NCBI GenBank assembly: GCA_001600355.1
Contig: BCJU01000001.1
Coordinates: forward strand, 6,014,013 to 6,078,012
Direction of reading: 5' to 3'
DNA from: Meira nashicola
Taxonomy: Eukaryota; Basidiomycota; Exobasidiomycetes; Exobasidiales; Brachybasidiaceae
Length of the DNA stretch: 64,000 nt
Under the pieces are notes generated by a model. The model was not told where the DNA came from, searched no databases, and worked only from the letters and a program-made list of their open reading frames with translations. Below, piece by piece: positions 13,403-54,356 of this stretch. Made by a program: the position numbers and the translations under genes. The number at the start of each line of letters is the position of its first letter. Within the stretch, counting starts at the first letter, position 1.

Positions 13403-13804
13403 TGATATAGATTGTATTCATATACACTACACACATAGACTAGAATGCATATAAAATATAATGCAAAGACGTTGGCGTTTTGACGCTAACATAAGGAAAT
13501 TGGCGTAATCTCAATTCCGCCCGCCGGCGGCACACTTTTTTAGGCATCGCGCGACTGAATTTAGCAATGTTTATGGCGTTATACGGCGCCCTCAATCGGT
13601 CTAAGGGTTTGTACCAATGATGAATCGTCATGTATGTAGATGAGAATGAAATTTCATATAAGTAGACGATGTTAAAATTTGATTTGTCCGTTAGACAACC
13701 ATCACTCGTAACTGTATTATTTTATTTCTTTTTCAAAATTCGCTTTGAGCTGGTCTCATTGTTTTATAACATTTTACATTCTTTTATCACAAAAACAAAT
13801 AAAA
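13403..13804. other. Promoter region of secreted protein gene
   Basis: About 400 bases, with a GC-rich patch near 13520 (CCCGCCGGCGGCAC) followed by AT-rich DNA up to the start codon. No gene seen. Confidence 0.3.
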
Positions 13805-14572
13805 ATGCGTTTCAACGTTCAAACCTCCGTGCTGGTCATCGGAGTGGCAGCAAGTTGTATTTTATCAGCACCCGTTCCAGATGATAGCAATCAATCTTTA
13901 TCAAGCACAACAACGACGACTTCTGTTCCACCTACAAATACACCAAATTCATTTTCAAATAGCAATAATATTATTGGTCCGGTGAATAATAATCAAAACA
14001 GTAATAAAAATAATAATCAAAATAATAATTATGGAAATGGAGATTTGATTACAATTCCAGTTGAAATTGATAGAACAATGTTACAAGCATTAATGTCAGG
14101 TGGAAGTGCAAATAATAATATTCAAAAGAATGTCGTTAGTACTTCTAATCAATTACCTCCAAATGCAATTCCATTCAATCAATTCGTTCAAGCTAATGGA
14201 GGAAATATTCCACCACCAAATGCAAATAACGTTCATGTAATTCAAGCAGGTTCTTTACCACCATCTCCTAAACAAGCATTAGTTAATACGGGTAACAATG
14301 TAGATAATCCTTCACCGACACCTGCTTCTAGTTCAACAAGTAGTACTTCTACATCCACAATTGCAACTAGTACTCCACCACCACCACCACCTTCTGATGA
14401 TTCTGATAGTGGTTCTGGGGACGAAAAGCCTCAAAAACGACAAGAATTGCAAAACAGAAATTCATTGCATGATCATAATACTGATGTCAATGATCCATGG
14501 TTTGGTGATGCTTGTGCTAAAAGGGATGGATGTACCGGAATTCCACAGCCAGGAGGAGGATTTGTTTATTAA
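13805..14572 (+). CDS. Secreted Asn/Ser/Thr-rich protein with Kex2-type sites
   Basis: A 255-residue protein. The N-terminus MRFNVQTSVLVIGVAASC continues to an Ala-Pro cleavage region and is a classical signal peptide. The body is low complexity: runs of Asn, Ser/Thr and a PPPPPP stretch. Two dibasic Lys-Arg sites follow: one after KPQ (QKRQEL) and one in DACAKRDGC. The second site sits between the only two cysteines of the C-terminal part. The last segment after Lys-Arg is short, Gly/Pro-rich and ends in FVY. Kexin in the Golgi would be expected to cut at such sites. There is no GPI signal. No family recognised; an effector-like or wall-associated secreted protein is possible. The frame extends 20 codons upstream without an ATG. 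It faces the next secreted-protein gene tail to tail. Confidence 0.75.
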   Translation: MRFNVQTSVLVIGVAASCILSAPVPDDSNQSLSSTTTTTSVPPTNTPNSFSNSNNIIGPVNNNQNSNKNNNQNNNYGNGDLITIPVEIDRTMLQALMSGGSANNNIQKNVVSTSNQLPPNAIPFNQFVQANGGNIPPPNANNVHVIQAGSLPPSPKQALVNTGNNVDNPSPTPASSSTSSTSTSTIATSTPPPPPPSDDSDSGSGDEKPQKRQELQNRNSLHDHNTDVNDPWFGDACAKRDGCTGIPQPGGGFVY

Positions 14573-14693: not shown

Positions 14694-16634
14694 TTACCAA
14701 TCTTCACGTTCATAAAGAGTTTCAAAACCTTCTAATTCACGACGAGAAAGTTTATTTGACATCCATTGCCAAACTGAACGTTCTTGTGGAGCTTGTTGAT
14801 TTGCTTCTTGACTTGCTCTTTTAACTGAACGTTTTGCTGTTGTTGATCTACGTTGTTTTTTCTTAATTGCTTCATTACAATCACTACTGATTAGAGGTGG
14901 TTGATCACCTTGTTCGGTTGCAGTTGCTGCTTTTGTAGAAGAAGATGCTACAGCTGTACTTGTTGGACTTGCACTTACTGCACGATTTCCACCTACATTT
15001 GAAACTGCAGTAAACATTGATTCAGGTACCATGATTGTCATTGGCATCCATCCATCTTCATCATCATCAGGTGAAACTGATCTTTGTGGTGGTGGAAGTG
15101 CGGTCGTAGTTGCACTTTGACTAACACTTGAAGTAGCGGAAGGAATCAAGTTATTTGCTGAAACTGAAGAAGATGAAGATGAACTACTTGCAGTTTGTGT
15201 TGGTGCAGCTACATTGGATGTTGGTGAAGTGATTGCTGCAGTACTTTGTCCCATATCTGTTGCACCTAATGTGAATGTTGTCGAACTACTTGTCACGGCT
15301 GCATTTTGAGCTGCAGATGCTGTTGAACTTGAAGGTGCAACGGAAGAAGAGGAAGAACTTGAATCAGCAGCTCCCACGGTTGGGAAAGCTTCAGAAGCAC
15401 TCGTACTTGCACTTGCACTGGCACTACTTGTTGGATCAGCAGCTGCCACATTTGATGACAAAGAAGAGCTTACAGATGCACTTTCAGTAGCAGCAGCGGA
15501 AGGAGATGAACTTGCAGCTGCACTTGTACTTTGAGCGACATTAACATTTGCACTTGTAGTTGTAGCATCTGGTGCAGAAGCAGAAGAACTACTTGAAACA
15601 ACATCAGCTGCAGGAGTTGAACTAGCTGAAGCTTGACTAGCAGCAGCAGGAGTACTTGTTGGTGAAACACTTGCTTGTGCAGCATCAGTTGTAGCTGCAG
15701 CACTTGTAGATGCGGCACTATCAGTTGCTGCTACTGAATTTTGAGCAGGTGAAACGGTAGCAGCCGTATTTGTTGGAGCAGCAGTGTCGGAAGCAGCAGT
15801 GTTTGTAGCGGCAGCAGTGTTGGTAGCTGCAGTGTTGGTAGCAGCTGGATCAGCAGCAGTATTTGTAGCGGCAGCAGTATTTGTTGCAGCTGGATCAGAA
15901 GCAGTATTTGTTGCGGCAGCAGTATTGGTAGCAGCTGGATCAGCAGCAGTATTGGAGGCAGCGGTATTGGTGGCAGCTGGATCAGAAGCGGTGTTTGTTG
16001 CGGCAGCAGTATTTGTTGCAGCTGCAGAATCAGTAGCTGCAGCAGTATTAGTTGCAGCAGTACCTGTTGCAGCGCCTGTTGCTGGAGCGGACGATTGTGC
16101 ATCAGCTTGTACTGGCTCTTGACGACGGCGGAAAGAAGGAACAGTTTCAGAACCTGTTGCTGAATCAGCATATTGTTGAATTTGTTGAGCGGCAGGATTG
16201 ACTTGTTCATTTGTAGTTGCAGCAGTTGCAGCAGAAGGATCGAATTCTGCAATTTGTTCTGCAACACCTTCTGCTTGAGCCCATTGTTGACCTAAACCTT
16301 GATCTGTACTCGAATCGGAAGCAGTTGCAGTAGCATTTGCAGTTGCACTTGTTGTTGGAATTGGAGAAGCATTTAATTGTTGAACAACGGCAGAAGGTGT
16401 AGCAGAAGTTGAAGAAGCACTCAAAGTACTTTGTTCAGCTGCAACGGCAGAAGAATACCAACTTTGATCACCTGAAGGAACTCCTGCATTGTATGCTGCC
16501 ATTGCATCTTGTAATCCTGCAGGGGCAGCATGAACGCTTTGTGTTGCTGAAGAAGCCAAAAGAACGGCAACAACTACTGCCGAACTTAAACTTGCAAAAG
16601 ATTTCTTGGAACGTAAAGTAGAACGAGCAACCAT
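14694..16634 (-). CDS. Large secreted Ala/Ser/Thr-rich repeat protein
   Basis: A 646-residue protein. Basic N-terminal residues are followed by a hydrophobic core (SLSSAVVVAVLLASSA) and AHA/AP-type cleavage, a signal peptide. Most of the body is Ala, Ser and Thr. Residues about 190-295 are degenerate repeats of AATNTA with DP and SD spacers. Such regions are usually heavily O-mannosylated wall or extracellular stalks. A dibasic-type site FRRRQEP precedes the repeats at about residue 170. The C-terminus differs: it is basic, with QRRSTTAKRSVKRAS, then SVWQWMSNKLSRRELEG, and ends in REDW. No GPI attachment signal is visible, so it should be soluble or non-covalently attached. Sequence-based function not recognised. 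Confidence 0.75.
   Translation of the reverse strand: MVARSTLRSKKSFASLSSAVVVAVLLASSATQSVHAAPAGLQDAMAAYNAGVPSGDQSWYSSAVAAEQSTLSASSTSATPSAVVQQLNASPIPTTSATANATATASDSSTDQGLGQQWAQAEGVAEQIAEFDPSAATAATTNEQVNPAAQQIQQYADSATGSETVPSFRRRQEPVQADAQSSAPATGAATGTAATNTAAATDSAAATNTAAATNTASDPAATNTAASNTAADPAATNTAAATNTASDPAATNTAAATNTAADPAATNTAATNTAAATNTAASDTAAPTNTAATVSPAQNSVAATDSAASTSAAATTDAAQASVSPTSTPAAASQASASSTPAADVVSSSSSASAPDATTTSANVNVAQSTSAAASSSPSAAATESASVSSSLSSNVAAADPTSSASASASTSASEAFPTVGAADSSSSSSSVAPSSSTASAAQNAAVTSSSTTFTLGATDMGQSTAAITSPTSNVAAPTQTASSSSSSSSVSANNLIPSATSSVSQSATTTALPPPQRSVSPDDDEDGWMPMTIMVPESMFTAVSNVGGNRAVSASPTSTAVASSSTKAATATEQGDQPPLISSDCNEAIKKKQRRSTTAKRSVKRASQEANQQAPQERSVWQWMSNKLSRRELEGFETLYEREDW
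15750..16065 (-). repeat. Coding minisatellite in the secreted Ala/Thr-rich protein
   Basis: On the plus strand the region repeats units such as GTATTTGTTGCGGCAGCAGT and GCAGCTGGATCAG in varying order. It encodes AATNTA-type blocks with DP or SD spacers. Units keep frame. Such arrays change length by recombination or slippage, so copy number may vary among strains. Confidence 0.7.
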
Positions 16635-27704: not shown

Positions 27705-29339
27705 TTAGCGACGCTCAGCCATTTCAGGCGAACGTTCTTCTTCCGAGATGGAGCTTTCGATGGTATCCTTGATACCCGTATAAACAACTCTGTGAGCGTC
27801 TATTCCCATAATGAAGTCCAAATGTTCATATCCTTCCAATTCGACAGCATGGACAATGTCAATGTTCTTTTCGTTTCTCTCCATACGTTGTGCCAATGGT
27901 TTACCCAAGACCAACATATCCAAATTTCCGTAGTAAATCGAATGACGAGGGAAAGTGCGTGGGAACCATGGTTCTTGAACACGAGGGTCGAAGATGCATC
28001 CACGATGAGAGAAACCACTCATGTAATAGTAAAGCAATTCGGAAGAAGTTGGAACGGGTAATGTACGGAAAATCTTTGGCTTTTGACGCATGACCCAATT
28101 GTGGTCGTGGAAGCCGAACAAGTACGAGAAGATAACGTAACCAAGATGTCCGAAGATGTAAGCAGGTAGATATTGTTGGAATAGACCGATAGCAGGAATG
28201 AATTCTTTGACACCAAAGATCGTTGACCACCATTTACGCGAACGGAATTGACGTAATAAACTGAAGGGGAATTTACGCAAAACGGGACCGGAGTAGACAG
28301 CAGGACCAATAGCCGTGAAAGAAGAAATCTTTCTGCCAAGTTCAGGGCAAATACCAGGCGATAGAGCGATGTACATCGATCCACTTCCTTGTGAATGTCC
28401 AACGAATGCCACACGTGGACGTCCGGTTGCACCTGTGATGAATTCGATAACATCACGCAAATCGAATGCCAATTCTTTGAGACCGAATGCCCAGAATCTG
28501 GGATCGTTACGGGTATATTCAGTGTGTCCGGCACCAAAGTTAGCACGAATGTTAGTCACCCAAACATCATAACCTTGATCGACGAGCCAGAATGCCATAC
28601 TTCTTTCTTCGCAAACGAAAAAGTGGGAGGAATTACACAAGATACCGTGTTGCAAGACGACAGGATAACCGGTTGCAGTTCCACGACGAGGATCAGAGAC
28701 ACGGTGAGCCTTCAAGATCCAACCTCCTTCTGTGATGATTTCATGCTCATCACAACGGTATCCCCAGTAATTTGCGTAGTATTGTGGCTTTCCACTGAAA
28801 CGTTCACCAGTCATTCTACGTTCGTATTCACGGTCACCACGAGCGCGTGGAGGAGCTTTCTTTAGTGGGTTCAAGTAAGCTGCAAATGCTGCAACAAGAA
28901 CGACACCCAAACCAGCAAGAGTTAAGAAGAAAGAAGCGGATTGACGGATGAACAATCTTATTTTGTTGAAAAAGTTCATTTCACCGTAATTTTGTACAAC
29001 ATGGTCAAAGAACACCATTTCAAGCGGAGGTTCATCTTCATAATCTCCAAAGGTTGGATCGAAGAATTCTTGTCCCCCTTCTGGTGTACGTGCTGTATCA
29101 CCTGTAGTATGGATATGTTCAACGTTGAAGTGGTGACCACGACCTGTAGTGGGGTCTTGTTGCCTGGATTGCCCATGTTCTTCGGATGAATATGCATTGC
29201 CTGCTTGAACGTCAGAAGTGACATCTTGTTCGTGACTACGTTGTCCTTGTTGATCGTTGAATGGATCTTGATGGTTTTCCTCTTCTGGACTATCGCGCTG
29301 ACCGCGCATACGGCGACTATAATCGATAAAGGCAGACAT
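27705..29339 (-). CDS. Steryl-ester hydrolase / acid-lipase family, membrane-anchored (YEH/TGL1-like)
   Basis: A 544-residue protein. The N-terminal 110 residues are polar and disordered. One membrane segment lies near residues 135-155 (FFLTLAGLGVVLVAAFAAYL), followed by an alpha/beta-hydrolase domain. The lid and oxyanion region starts at ADLIT-equivalent sequence DEHEIITEGGWILKAHRV, then VVLQHGILCNSSHFF. The nucleophile elbow is GHSQGSG with Ser316, and the likely acid and base are in NLDMLVLGKPLAQ and EGYEHLDFIMG. The fold and HGxxxxS oxyanion motif match lysosomal acid lipases and yeast Tgl1/Yeh1/Yeh2, which release sterols from steryl esters on lipid droplets or at the membrane. A paralogue lies at 52563-54356. 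Confidence 0.9.
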   Translation of the reverse strand: MSAFIDYSRRMRGQRDSPEEENHQDPFNDQQGQRSHEQDVTSDVQAGNAYSSEEHGQSRQQDPTTGRGHHFNVEHIHTTGDTARTPEGGQEFFDPTFGDYEDEPPLEMVFFDHVVQNYGEMNFFNKIRLFIRQSASFFLTLAGLGVVLVAAFAAYLNPLKKAPPRARGDREYERRMTGERFSGKPQYYANYWGYRCDEHEIITEGGWILKAHRVSDPRRGTATGYPVVLQHGILCNSSHFFVCEERSMAFWLVDQGYDVWVTNIRANFGAGHTEYTRNDPRFWAFGLKELAFDLRDVIEFITGATGRPRVAFVGHSQGSGSMYIALSPGICPELGRKISSFTAIGPAVYSGPVLRKFPFSLLRQFRSRKWWSTIFGVKEFIPAIGLFQQYLPAYIFGHLGYVIFSYLFGFHDHNWVMRQKPKIFRTLPVPTSSELLYYYMSGFSHRGCIFDPRVQEPWFPRTFPRHSIYYGNLDMLVLGKPLAQRMERNEKNIDIVHAVELEGYEHLDFIMGIDAHRVVYTGIKDTIESSISEEERSPEMAERR

Positions 29340-49587: not shown

Positions 49588-50034
49588 CGAAGTCTGTTTA
49601 TCGTCATATCAAGCTTATCTCTCGTATCTTGCTAGGATGATCACTGTTGCTTGTTCAGAAGAACAAGATGACCAGAATAACGCTAAATAATAATAAATTT
49701 GACTTTCTTTTTGTAGAAGTGGAGATTATCCAACAGGCACTTGGACAGTGTTGCGTATATTTATTCATACGCGTATTAAATACAGACGACTTACTAGCAT
49801 AGCATGTCACTTACGGGTGTTACTCTTCGCAGAGATAATTCTAGTGATAAATTTTTTACAAGGAAATGATGAATTGAAATAAAAGTTAAGATGATATTAT
49901 CTTCCGAACAAAAGGCTAAACTGCTCATTTCTCATCAGATTTGTGTGCGACAGTATTGAACAACCTTGTTGAAAGAAAAAGGAATTGTATTCTCAAAATT
50001 AATGATGAAGTGTTTTTGCTTTAGCAGAGCTTGG
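49588..50034. other. Spacer holding the downstream flank of tandem unit 1
   Basis: From about 49837 (AATTCTAGTGATAAA) the sequence is clearly similar to 50588 onward, including CCGAACAAAAGGCTAAA and CTCATCAGATTTGTGTG. It is the 3' flank of the first small-peptide gene and marks the edge of the duplication. It lacks a C-rich block seen in unit 2. Confidence 0.6.
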
Positions 50035-50336
50035 CTAACGTTTAACAAAATAATAGCAAGTACCATTTGTGCAAGCGCAATTAGTATCACTGCAATAACC
50101 GTTCGGGCAGCTAGATGAGCCGGAGCAAGTACGAGCACGCTTAACAAGACCGACTTGACGTAATTGTTGCTGTATAAATAGGAAAAAAAAGTTAGTATAA
50201 CTTATTAAGATTTTAATCGTAGACCAAAAATTCTTACCAAATTAATGCCAGCTGGAATAGCCTCGCAACAGAGGAAGAAAGTAAGAATTGCTAAAGTAGT
50301 AGCGAAGAATAAGTTGAAATTAAATTTAGCAACCAT
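50035..50336 (-). CDS. Small secreted cysteine-knot-like peptide precursor, copy 1
   Basis: Two exons (50238-50336 and 50035-50169) around a 68-base intron (GTAAGA...TATACAG) at phase 0 encode 77 residues. A signal peptide (FNFNLFFATTLAILTFF core) ends near AIPA. A pro-segment QQLRQVGLVKR ends in a Kex2 Lys-Arg site. The mature part of about 33 residues has six cysteines spaced C-x5-C-x4-C-x4-C-x1-C-x4-C, the spacing seen in inhibitor-cystine-knot mini-proteins. It ends in Lys-Arg, which Kex1-type carboxypeptidase could trim. Homology to known knottins is not claimed. An antimicrobial, effector or signalling role is possible; none is shown. A TAG ends it where copy 2 reads on. Confidence 0.8.
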
Positions 50337-50746
50337 CTTGAATATGAAGGTGTTCGTTTGATCTGAGTGACAGGATAATGGTGTCAATCACACTGGATGA
50401 GCACTGCTGCAGACAAGTGGATGATAAAGAATTGAATTAAGGATAGATATATAATATCAGTATACAAACGTGTCATAGGTTTAACGCCATACAGTGCCAA
50501 CGGAATACGGCAAGCAGTATACACATGCACGTGTAACGTGATCATAGTGTGAACTACCAGGATGTGCTATTCATAGATCACATTAAATTCTAGTGATAAT
50601 TTTATACGAGGAAATGAATTGAAATAAATCATTTTCCGAACAAAAGGCTAAATACTCCGCCCGCCCGCTTCCTTACACCCTAATGCTCATTGCTCATCAG
50701 ATTTGTGTGTTCCCTTGTTGAAAGAGAAAGAAATTAATTTCTCCAA
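50337..50746. other. Spacer between the tandem peptide genes
   Basis: About 410 bases: the promoter of copy 1 and the downstream flank of copy 2. From 50588 it matches the flank downstream of copy 1, offset about 751 bases, with an extra CTCCGCCCGCCCGCTTCC block. Confidence 0.6.
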
Positions 50747-51091
50747 TTAATGATGATGTATTTTTGCTTTAGCAGAGCTTGGCTTACGTTCAACATAAAA
50801 ATAGCAGTTACCATTTGAGCAAGAGCACTCAGAATCATCGCAACTACCGTCCGGGCAAGTAGATGAACCAGAGCAAACATGACCACGCTTAACAAGACCG
50901 ACTTGACGTAATTGTTGCTGTATTAAAAAAGAAAATAAAAATGTTAGTTTAGCTAAGTTTTAAAATTTCAATTGTATACTAAAGATTCTCACCAAATTAA
51001 GGCCAGCTGGAATAGCCCTACAACAGTGGAGGAAAGCAAGAATTGCTAAAGTAGTAGCGAAAAATAAGTTGAAATTAAATATAGTAACCAT
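50747..51091 (-). CDS. Small secreted cysteine-knot-like peptide precursor, copy 2
   Basis: Two exons (50993-51091 and 50747-50917) with a 75-base intron (GTGAGA...AATACAG) at the same codon and phase as copy 1. It encodes 89 residues (90 if the ATG at 51094 is used). The signal peptide is similar to copy 1, the pro-segment QQLRQVGLVKR is identical, and the Lys-Arg site is kept. The mature part has the same six-Cys spacing but differs at about 14 of 30 aligned positions and is more acidic (Asp/Glu where copy 1 has Asn, Ser or Tyr). It continues past the last cysteine with a basic tail, VERKPSSAKAKIHHH, absent from copy 1. Role unknown. Confidence 0.8.
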
Positions 51092-52562
51092 CATGAAAAG
51101 ATAATTGACTAGTAAGAATAAATTAGAAATGAAATGCTTGTTATGATTGAAAAAGGGGGGGGGAATACTGAAGTAATCAGGCTTTTTATATCTTTGTTTT
51201 TTAAAGGTGTACTTTGTTATAGTAAGAGCTATAATATGTTCTATGTGTACGCCAATGCAGTGTTGCCAACATAGCATTTATAGCCATGATGACCGAGTTA
51301 TAATACTTATTTCATAGCAAGGATCAGATAAAATCTTTGATTTGCGCATGCGCCAATAAAGTACAGCATTGATCAATATAATAAACTGAAAGTTTTAACA
51401 CACTATTACTCAACGTTGTAAACTCTATTGATTTTGCTGATACTACTATTGTTTCGGTGCAATCTGGTTCGGGTCGCCTATAAAAGCACTCAGCGGTGAC
51501 AATGCTGTATTGTGTAGAATATTCTATTTTATTGATTAAAGGATAAGCTGAGCAAAGAAAGGGAAAATATTTCAAGTATGGAAATATACTAGTACTTTCG
51601 GATATGATTGTTCATCTTCTTCCCATAATGTATTTTACTTCCTAACATCTTCAATTCCTTTGATAAGGAGATAAACCAAAGTAGTCAGGGGGACGAGAAA
51701 TGCTTGAATTATCGGAAAAATTTTAAGAAAGGAGTTCTCAGGAGTAGAGTACCAATGATACTTTTTAAACAAGTATGGAATCGGATCTAATCATTTTCAG
51801 GAGATTTTACTAGGAGATGTCACGGATCATTTTTACAGCATTTGGATAGCGAAATTATTTTTACGCAATCCACTGAAATGCAAACTGACAAGCTTGCTCG
51901 CTCATTCATTCGTGTGCGTATGTGCAAACAAGAATTTCTCTAAAAGGCAGACCACTCCGCCCTCCCGCTTCCCTGCACCCTTAATAGCTTCTCATCAAAT
52001 TGGTGCAATAAATTCCCACCTTTTTGCCCTTTTGTAAAAAAAAAATGTCAAAAAATAGCATCTTTTTGCTTCGCGCGCGGGTGCTGTGCTTTTCCGTCCA
52101 TTCTAGTCTATGTATTTTTCGCCTTTTCCGCCGACTATATAAGTACTAACGCTTGCTTGTGTGTGAAATGGTTACAGTGCATCTCTGCAACGGCGCAGCG
52201 CAATTAATCAGTCTGCATACATTCATAGTCTACATATTTTGATATGGCCCTCCGCATACATTCATCCTACCAGATTAACTGCACACACGCATTTATTGCC
52301 CTGAAAGGCATTAGCGTGCATTAGAATGACATCAGTTTGAAAAGGTGTTAGATCGGTTGGTTTGTTATTGTGTTTTGGACCTCGGCGTCTATCCAGGACA
52401 AAAGAATCAATCCCAAAGATCTTCCCTTCTTCGCCATCATATATCTTACCACCATCATTATCATTATCAAAGTTGAATTCAAGTCAAAATCAATGCTCCT
52501 TTAATTGGAAGAGTAAGACACAAAATACCCTCTAATCGCCACTAGTATAAAGAGTGGACAAG
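51092..52562. other. Gene-poor region with a decayed third copy of the unit flank
   Basis: About 1.47 kb. From 51941 to about 52005 (AAAAGGCAGACCACTCCGCC, then CTTCTCATCAAATTGGTG) it resembles the flank downstream of copy 2, after a shift of 1300 bases. No third coding copy survives; the next bases diverge after ATCTTTTTGCTT. The rest is the lipase promoter with an AT-rich and GC-island mix. The open frame at 51324-51575 (minus) has no signal peptide. Confidence 0.5.
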
Positions 52563-54356
52563 ATGTCTGTTCAACATCAATCTCATCTAACAGCAGGGAT
52601 AAGGCCGAGTGGAAAGTTAGTAGATGTGGATACAGCGGAAGCAAGTGCGTTGCCAGAAGGTTTTCCGAACGGAAAGCAAAGGTTGAGTACATCAAGTGAT
52701 GGAATAATAAGTAGACCAACTTCTGCACAAAGTATGCGTATTCGAATCGATAAACCAAGTTTAGATGCGATAAAGAGTAGAAATGTATATACAAAACCTA
52801 TCAATGCTTTTGATGAACCTTCGATTCCAACTTCACCAACAAGAGGACTTGCACCTATTTTCACAAGAAGGGATGGTGCTCCGCCATACAATCGACCAAC
52901 GATTATCTCTTGGGCTAGGCTACAGTGGTCACAGTTCTTAGCAAATGCTCTTTCATCTGCATTTCTGATCGGTGTTGTGATTTGGGCTCTTACTGTTCGT
53001 TTATTGGCAGCTATACCTAAAATGTTTGTACCAAAAGTTATCTCACAAAAAGATTGGGATGAACCAAAGAGATGGAGAAAGGAAGAATTACTCAAAGATG
53101 TTCGATATTATGCCGAATCATGCGGTTTCAAAATCATTAATGAAACAGCAGAAACACAAGATGGATATCTACTTCGTGTAAACAGAATTGTTGATCCTAC
53201 AAGAGAGCACGAAAAGCATAGCGATGGTAGAGGAGGATTCCCAGTCTTAATCTTACATGGCCTTTTTCAATCTTCAGGATCATTCGTTACCTCAGAAGAG
53301 AGAAGTTTAGCATTTTGGCTTGCAAGACAAGGAGGCTATCAAGTCTTTTTGGGTAACAATCGAGGTGTATTTGATATGGGTCATAAAACTTTAAGCAGGA
53401 GCGATCCAAGATTTTGGGATTACAATATTCGTGAGCTAGCAATTTATGATGTACCTGCCCTTGTTGACCATGTACGCAAACAGACAGGATATGACAAGAT
53501 TGCATTTATTGGACATTCTCAAGGAAATGGAACGATGTTCATCTCTTTATCACAAAGTATGGTTCCAGAGTTAGGTGCAAAGCTTTCTTATTTTGCAGCA
53601 TTAGCACCAGCAGTATTTGCAGGTCCATTAACAAGTTGTTTCCCCTTTACAGCATTGCGTACTATGCAATGGAAAACGTTCAAGAGATTCTTTGGCGTTT
53701 TAGACTTTATTCCATTGATGAAGATTGCATACGATTATACACCAGCTTATCCATTTGCTGCGCTAGGATATCAAATGTTCGCCTTCTTGTTCGCTTGGAC
53801 TGATGCAAATTGGCTTGGAAGAAGAAAAGCAAAGATGTTCCGATTCACTCCTCAACCTGTTTCTTCTGCTTCGATTTATTGGTGGGCAGGAGCAGGTGGA
53901 TTTTCAACGAGAGGATGTACATTAGATCAAACTGCTCCTAAATGGTGGGATGGTAAAACTTTCCCACCACTTTCAATCTTTAGCGGTGGAATGGATTTCT
54001 TGGTGTTAACAGAACCTTTATTGGACAGATTAGAGAATGAAGAGTCGGACGTTAGACTATTACGATACAAACGTCAAGAAGAAGCAGAACATTGCGATCA
54101 CTTTTGGGCATGCGATGCTGTGGAATGGTGTTTCTACGATATCCTGGAAGATATTGAAGCAACAAGAACGCCTTATCCAGAAGAAATCACATCCAAAGGA
54201 ACTGAATCTAGTACAGAAACAAATGATACCGAATCAACAAGAGTGAATAGTGACAGTCCAATTGTTGTTACTGCTCCTGATGCAATCGTCAAAAGTGCAA
54301 CAAAAGCAGAACAAACTGCAGCAAAAGAAGGTAAATTGATCGATGATTCAATATGA
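52563..54356 (+). CDS. Steryl-ester hydrolase / acid-lipase family, paralogue
   Basis: A 597-residue protein. The first in-frame ATG is 52563. A polar N-terminal 115 residues precede a membrane segment (SSAFLIGVVIWALTVRLLAA) and an alpha/beta-hydrolase domain. Motifs: VLILHGLFQSSGSFV (oxyanion), GHSQGNGTMF with Ser319, FSGGMDFLVLTEPLLD (acid) and EAEHCDHFWACDAV (His). NNRGVFDMGHKTLSRSDPRF matches the NxRG segment of acid lipases; in the first lipase it is NIRANFGAGHTEYTRNDPRF. The C-terminus is Thr/Ser/Glu-rich. Likely substrates are steryl esters, as in yeast Tgl1/Yeh1/Yeh2. It is a dispersed paralogue of the 27705-29339 gene, in opposite orientation. Confidence 0.9.
   Translation: MSVQHQSHLTAGIRPSGKLVDVDTAEASALPEGFPNGKQRLSTSSDGIISRPTSAQSMRIRIDKPSLDAIKSRNVYTKPINAFDEPSIPTSPTRGLAPIFTRRDGAPPYNRPTIISWARLQWSQFLANALSSAFLIGVVIWALTVRLLAAIPKMFVPKVISQKDWDEPKRWRKEELLKDVRYYAESCGFKIINETAETQDGYLLRVNRIVDPTREHEKHSDGRGGFPVLILHGLFQSSGSFVTSEERSLAFWLARQGGYQVFLGNNRGVFDMGHKTLSRSDPRFWDYNIRELAIYDVPALVDHVRKQTGYDKIAFIGHSQGNGTMFISLSQSMVPELGAKLSYFAALAPAVFAGPLTSCFPFTALRTMQWKTFKRFFGVLDFIPLMKIAYDYTPAYPFAALGYQMFAFLFAWTDANWLGRRKAKMFRFTPQPVSSASIYWWAGAGGFSTRGCTLDQTAPKWWDGKTFPPLSIFSGGMDFLVLTEPLLDRLENEESDVRLLRYKRQEEAEHCDHFWACDAVEWCFYDILEDIEATRTPYPEEITSKGTESSTETNDTESTRVNSDSPIVVTAPDAIVKSATKAEQTAAKEGKLIDDSI

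Follow-up and report, generated by a model that had tools for sequence, protein, structure and literature searches.

The closest described counterparts of the two genes considered here, a head-to-tail pair on the minus strand of a 64,000-nt stretch of the Meira nashicola genome (the window), are the secreted knottins of fungi. In the available excerpts of the literature, an expansion of knottins is reported for Histoplasma, the Fungi1 knottin family is that of Histoplasma and its relatives, and Avr9, from Cladosporium fulvum, is named as a characterized knottin (PMC4503680). The excerpt on Melampsora larici-populina describes the structure of MLP124266, with bridges 39-55, 44-58, and 50-64, and sets the range of the cystine knot at C-x2-7-C-x3-10-C-x0-7-C-x1-17-C-x4-19-C (PMC6889267). 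Of the predicted knottin-like families of Venturia inaequalis, three are described as defensin-like, while a true knot is ascribed to one family and to a singleton (PMC9632046), and knottin families are also mentioned among 51 strains of skin fungi (PMC12204505). No paper on the pair itself was found, and no description of a knottin from the Ustilaginomycotina was seen in the titles, abstract openings, and excerpts of the papers retrieved on knottins of Ustilago and the basidiomycetes, a negative that calls for caution, given that the excerpt on the skin-fungi knottins names no species (PMC12204505).

The Meira nashicola genes resemble these fungal knottins, as far as the excerpts describe them, in being small and secreted (by prediction, in the present case), with six cysteines at a knot-compatible spacing, and the fungal knottins often form multi-copy families, like the pair here. 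The loops of MLP124266, derived from its cysteine numbers, are 4-5-4-2-5, versus 5-4-4-1-4 in the pair, and its N-terminal half is flexible, unlike the pair; a dibasic pro-segment is not named in the excerpt, and none was searched for. No sequence relation between the pair and the fungal knottins was found, in searches made without the profiles of those families.

The pair is an orphan one, real and intact as far as its sequence can tell, and codes for six-cysteine mini-proteins with predicted secretion. The explanation favored here, with modest confidence, is that of tandem, lineage-restricted genes for cystine-knotted secreted mini-proteins, released by Kex2 and most likely aimed outward. 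If real, these genes would provide a small, well-defined pair for asking where the disulfide scaffolds secreted by fungi come from and how they diversify, and would extend such scaffolds beyond the rusts and ascomycetes, in which they have been described so far. None of Cladosporium, Histoplasma, Melampsora, and Venturia is known to belong to the Ustilaginomycotina. The skin fungi include Malassezia, which lies within this group.

Gene Structure and Proposed Precursor Processing

The two intact two-exon genes span positions 50035-51091 of the window (GC content 41%), from the last base of the gene 1 stop codon to the gene 2 ATG, in the tandem arrangement that an earlier note on this DNA had proposed. 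The features of the locus are as follows:

50238-50336, minus strand: gene 1 exon 1, with the leader (approximately residues 1-26) and the start of the pro-segment
50170-50237, minus strand: 68-nt intron of gene 1, in phase 0, with GTAAG...CTAAC...ACAG, read from the sequence alone
50035-50169, minus strand: gene 1 exon 2, with the pro-segment QQLRQVGLVKR, the mature part, and the stop codon
50038-50136, minus strand: predicted gene 1 mature peptide, 33 residues, cysteine spacing 5-4-4-1-4, Lys-Arg just before the stop; AlphaFold2 predicted local distance difference test (pLDDT) score 76.3
50993-51091, minus strand: gene 2 exon 1, with the leader and the start of the pro-segment
50918-50992, minus strand: 75-nt intron of gene 2, in phase 0 and matching the gene 1 intron in codon position
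50747-50917, minus strand: gene 2 exon 2, with the pro-segment, the mature part, a 12-residue C-terminal extension that gene 1 lacks, and the stop codon
50750-50884, minus strand: predicted gene 2 mature peptide, 45 residues, with the cysteine core at 50786-50884; modeled together with the pro part, AlphaFold2 pLDDT 59.8
49839-50034, minus strand: gene 1 3' flank, with a second copy downstream of gene 2 (approximately 50587-50746); over 168 aligned positions, counting the stop codon, the two show 18 differences and 6 indels
50343-50582, no strand assigned: dispersed repeat of approximately 240 bp between the duplicated units

The products are 77 (gene 1) and 89 (gene 2) amino acids long. Both introns follow Asn-Leu in phase 0, an agreement of codon and phase that the earlier note had reported correctly, and both have GT...ACAG ends, with the CTAAC box starting 25 nt (gene 1) or 29 nt (gene 2) before the last intron base. 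In unspliced gene 1, the exons lie in different reading frames, while those of gene 2 share one frame but are separated by a stop codon in the intron. As a local control for the intron form, a neighboring gene on the same strand, which we take to encode methionyl-tRNA formyltransferase, contains a comparable intron of 66 nt, in which the box reads TTAAC. The 12 extra residues of gene 2 follow from the absence of the gene 1 stop codon, and the equivalent stretch past the gene 1 stop is non-coding.

In each precursor, a hydrophobic leader is followed by a pro-segment of 18 residues, with Lys-Arg at its end, and then by the cysteine-rich mature part. The leaders, candidate cleavable signal peptides judged by hydropathy, reach a mean of 2.2 and 2.4 in their best 12-residue stretches. 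The segment QQLRQVGLVKR, with its dibasic site, proved to be identical in the two genes, as had been claimed, and is so at the DNA level as well, whereas the full pro-segment, IPAG(I/L)NLQQLRQVGLVKR, has one change between the copies.

In the mechanism proposed here, the leader would take the precursor into the secretory pathway, where a Kex2-type protease would cut after the Lys-Arg to release approximately 33 residues from gene 1, or up to 45 from gene 2. Kex2 itself combines S8 and P domains with a membrane stretch and an acidic tail. The genome searched (17.9 Mb, 20 contigs) has a single P-domain match, in a protein frame that scores above the cut-off for Peptidase_S8 (E 1.4e-46) and for P_proprotein (E 4.4e-25), and below it for Peptidase_S8_N, and in which the remaining two features, membrane stretch and acidic tail, can be recognized by eye. 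Given this Kex2-like protein, the protease needed at the Lys-Arg site is probably present in the genome. The sequence provides both the Lys-Arg ahead of the mature part and a candidate protease of the Kex2 type. The terminal Lys-Arg of gene 1, which the gene 2 peptide lacks, might be trimmed by a Kex1-type carboxypeptidase. The computed charge of the 33-residue cores is approximately +1.7 in gene 1 and -4.2 in gene 2, changing to -0.3 when the final Lys-Arg of gene 1 is removed, and to -0.9 when the tail of gene 2 is included. With reduced cysteines, the computed peptide masses are approximately 3.2-3.5 kDa for gene 1 (3236.5 and 3520.9) and up to 4.8 kDa for gene 2 (4792.2).

The Cysteine Frame and the Candidate Knot

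The mature part of both copies has the frame C-x5-C-x4-C-x4-C-x1-C-x4-C, as the earlier note had stated. This exact frame occurs twice in the six reading frames of the window, both times in the gene pair, and in none of 60 sequences of matching length from a first-order Markov model. The gene pair itself is a stronger argument against chance than the cysteine frame. The spacing of both copies also falls within the published cystine-knot range, as given in the excerpt of PMC6889267.

The AlphaFold2 models of both peptides contain a predicted hairpin across Cys IV-VI, and neither contains a helix. When these models were compared with PDB structures by Foldseek, every match listed was, by the reading of its name, a knotted peptide (18 of 18 and 20 of 20), most of them cyclotides (16 of the 18 and 18 of the 20), the remainder being conotoxins or a spider inhibitor cystine knot (ICK) toxin. 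In the viral fold library, 15 matches were recovered, all at E of at least 6.4 and forming no coherent family, including six giant-virus "transmembrane proteins" and one putative iridescent virus conotoxin. A fold of the CS-alpha-beta defensin type, in which a C-x3-C is paired with a C-x1-C and accompanied by a helix, was considered and rejected, given that the mature part has no C-x3-C and neither model has a helix.

Three observations weigh against a knot. The broad knottin frame occurs seven times in the window, where the simulated sequences have a mean of 1.4 and a maximum also of seven, which makes it cheap by chance, and the broad pattern is thus weak evidence on its own. All of the Foldseek E-values against the PDB exceed 1 in both models. 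The best match of the PDB sequence-profile search, furthermore, is an LDL-receptor-related protein, with no knottin among the matches listed; this match to the LDL-receptor type-A module, a module that carries an acidic calcium cluster, has an E of 0.0087 with a two-row profile and of 0.42 with a single sequence, with best stretches of 19 and 24 residues. These same observations would suit peptides with another disulfide pattern, secreted and released by Kex2 in the same way but unrelated to the knottins, for which some limited probability should be reserved. It is harder to reconcile with such peptides that the PDB structures listed for both models read as knot-type peptides throughout, and that loops 2-5 have the lengths of those in the cyclotide kalata B1, with which the residue numbers in the excerpt of PMC4256454 are consistent.

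Based on the spacing and the structures retrieved, a knot fold appears likely for both peptides. The cystine-knot assignment of the earlier note is thus supported by the spacing and by the PDB matches listed, all of them read as knotted peptides, though at no E-value of 1 or below, and the structure prediction that it had proposed as a check yields the hairpin over Cys IV-VI but no significant structural match. If the peptides are knotted, the six cysteines would form three bridges, most likely I-IV, II-V, and III-VI, in a linear, cyclotide-like cystine knot, on which the loops could vary freely. In an inhibitor cystine knot, the third of these bridges is threaded through the ring.

Divergence of the Copies and the Repeat between Them

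The copies have diverged unevenly, a feature which, like the C-terminus of gene 2 and the repeat upstream of gene 1, goes beyond what the earlier note had found, and which makes the question of diversification testable in sister strains. Exon 1 differs at 10 of 99 nt, the intron at 15 of 68 (with two indels), the exon 2 pro part at 0 of 33, and the mature part at 23 of 99. There are no indels in 231 aligned nt of the exons, versus eight in 236 aligned positions of the intron and 3' flank. The codons of the six mature cysteines are unchanged (0 of 18 nt; hypergeometric P 0.005). The mature part is more changed than the leader and pro-segment (23/99 versus 10/132; Fisher P 0.001), and its non-cysteine positions are more changed than the 3' flank (23/81 versus 18/168; P 0.0008). 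This conserved leader and variable mature part look like the pattern of conotoxin genes.

Other parts of the comparison point the other way. The mature part shows no excess over the intron (23/99 versus 15/68; P 1.0), and, against constraint, the 22 amino acid changes between the copies are at the neutral level (21.9, sd 2.3), as estimated from 20,000 simulations of 33 substitutions each, with substitutions only. Gene conversion across the pro-segment, moreover, would yield part of the same pattern. Given the neutral level of amino acid change, constraint is argued from the frame, the cysteines, and the pro-segment, and not from a low dN/dS. Positive selection was also weighed, and is not claimed, because dN exceeds dS in the non-cysteine mature codons without significance (P 0.56).

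The dispersed repeat adjoins the duplicated unit on both sides, reaching approximately -7 from the gene 1 ATG and lying approximately 5 bp from the end of the duplicated 3' flank of gene 2, so that the DNA upstream of gene 2 has no counterpart upstream of gene 1. Elsewhere in the genome, the repeat has six near-full-length copies and one 43-bp piece. A TATA-like site is found 117 nt before the gene 1 ATG, within the repeat, and 99 nt before that of gene 2, outside it, and each of the upstream stretches scanned holds one further TATA-like site, which makes two in each stretch.

At 50453 (minus strand), the repeat copy of the window reads TATATATC, where four of the six other copies have CCACATCC or CTACATCC and two have AT-rich variants; the TATATATC variant may be a promoter gained by the copy in the window. 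Most of the copies have TG...CA ends, and the repeat may thus be a solo long terminal repeat, although inspection of the copies by eye gave no clear target duplication. Around the repeat at three loci (L003, L006, and L008, on contigs C19, C9, and C11), 1.5-1.8 kb are near-identical between small contigs (99.2% and 99.9%), and these stretches may reflect duplication at contig ends or in subtelomeres, or redundancy in the assembly.

The neutral level of amino acid change could also be expected of a relic family in decay, where the repeat would have displaced the gene 1 promoter, gene 2 would have lost its stop codon, and the frame would have stayed open by luck. The repeat sequence that begins just upstream of gene 1, the C-termini that differ through the loss or gain of a stop codon, and the lack of any homologue found would all suit such a history. 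The neutral simulations, however, keep an open frame in 39% of cases, all six cysteines in 10%, and both in only 4.5%, and the absence of exon indels comes on top of this result, while the splice signals are kept in both genes and each has a TATA-like site upstream, which makes decay quite improbable.

The pattern of divergence also bears on the use of the peptide, which might serve the biology of the fungus itself, as a cell-wall or self-signaling ligand. Such a ligand would be consistent with a fixed pro-segment and with regulated release by Kex2, and no defense or toxin-immunity genes were noticed beside the pair, among open reading frames (ORFs) of at least 250 amino acids inspected by eye without a family search. 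A role of this type nonetheless appears unlikely, given that the mature part is more changed than the leader and pro-segment, and its non-cysteine positions more than the 3' flank, although not the intron; such variability would be unusual in the ligand of an organism's own receptor, and there are two copies only, with no relatives found. In the favored explanation of secreted, knotted mini-proteins, the use is most likely outward, with the peptide acting on competitors or on a host organism, and the two copies would drift, or be driven, to different targets.

Relatives, Neighboring Frames, and Comparison with Known Systems

The LEU2 protein encoded in the window shares 97% identity with an unnamed ENA protein, and, among the best 120 of 7,999 scored matches, its best named match is that of Tilletiaria anomala (77%), a species of the Exobasidiomycetes, which places the fungus near this class. 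Protein searches of the genome with exon 2 and with the leader (E up to 10) recovered the two copies only. A wider search for relatives returned no homologue of the gene 1 precursor or the exon 2 alignment, with no candidate sharing three words among approximately 5.8 billion proteins. This absence is weak evidence, because only exact word matches are detected, and short two-exon genes would be missed by gene calling that ignores introns. Pfam assigns no family to gene 1, and its matches to gene 2, a proacrosin-binding protein (E 0.017) and a neuraminidase (E 0.012), lie below the cut-off and were taken as composition effects. No family was found in PHROGs, and the search of viral and prokaryote contigs gave 72 and 59 pattern stretches, respectively, none of them confirmed; the lack of viral or prokaryote relatives is as expected for a fungal gene. 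Rfam, at gathering scores, has no match across the window. The earlier note had not recognized the family, and none was found here either, but the kind itself, that of knottins secreted by fungi, has already been described (PMC4503680, PMC6889267, PMC9632046). The pair is an orphan addition to a kind already in print.

Elsewhere in the window, an ORF at 13745-14572 (plus strand) is secreted-looking and Asn-rich, with a Lys-Arg followed by a short C-terminal segment with two cysteines, and its product, from its sequence, is possibly another dibasic-processed secreted protein. A 646-amino acid ORF of Ser/Ala/Thr-rich repeats at 14694-16634 (minus strand), also secreted-looking, carries several dibasic sites toward its end and may encode a wall protein. 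Two related-looking lipase-type proteins with a GHSQG motif are encoded at 27705-29339 (minus strand) and 52554-54356 (plus strand), one of which adjoins the gene pair.

The plant cyclotides have a head-to-tail cyclic backbone, with Asn or Asp at the C-terminal cut, and the loop lengths of kalata B1 are 3-4-4-1-4. Loops 2-5 (4-4-1-4) are equal to those of both copies, whereas loop 1 is 3 in kalata B1 and 5 in the pair. Neither copy has an Asn or Asp after Cys VI, where cyclotides cyclize, and the pair differs further in its dibasic release and presumably linear backbone, with no homology found. Membership of the plant cyclotides was thus rejected, on the basis of the length of loop 1 and the missing cyclizing residue, and the likeness to cyclotides drawn in the earlier note holds for loops 2-5 only. 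The residue numbers in the available excerpt on kalata B1 fit these loops, without fixing every position (PMC4256454). A linear fungal peptide with cyclotide-like loops, if real, would suggest a convergent loop set.

Given the pattern of divergence between the copies, a second comparison is that with the conotoxins. In conotoxin precursors, the leader and pro-segment are conserved, the peptide is released at a dibasic site, the cysteines are fixed, and the loops change fast. The O-superfamily conotoxin frame has vicinal cysteines, which the pair lacks, and the pair consists of two genes only, with no homology to conotoxins found. The conserved leader and pro-segment, the dibasic site, the fixed cysteines, and the variable loops are nevertheless shared with precursors of this type. 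More tentatively, and with no great probability, the pair may be a fungal counterpart of the conotoxin genes, that is, linear cyclotide-like knottins confined to a single Exobasidiomycetes-like lineage, in which the leader and pro-segment would be frozen and the loops under diversifying selection, while the repeat would have replaced the promoter of one copy and given it expression control of its own, with different targets for the two peptides.
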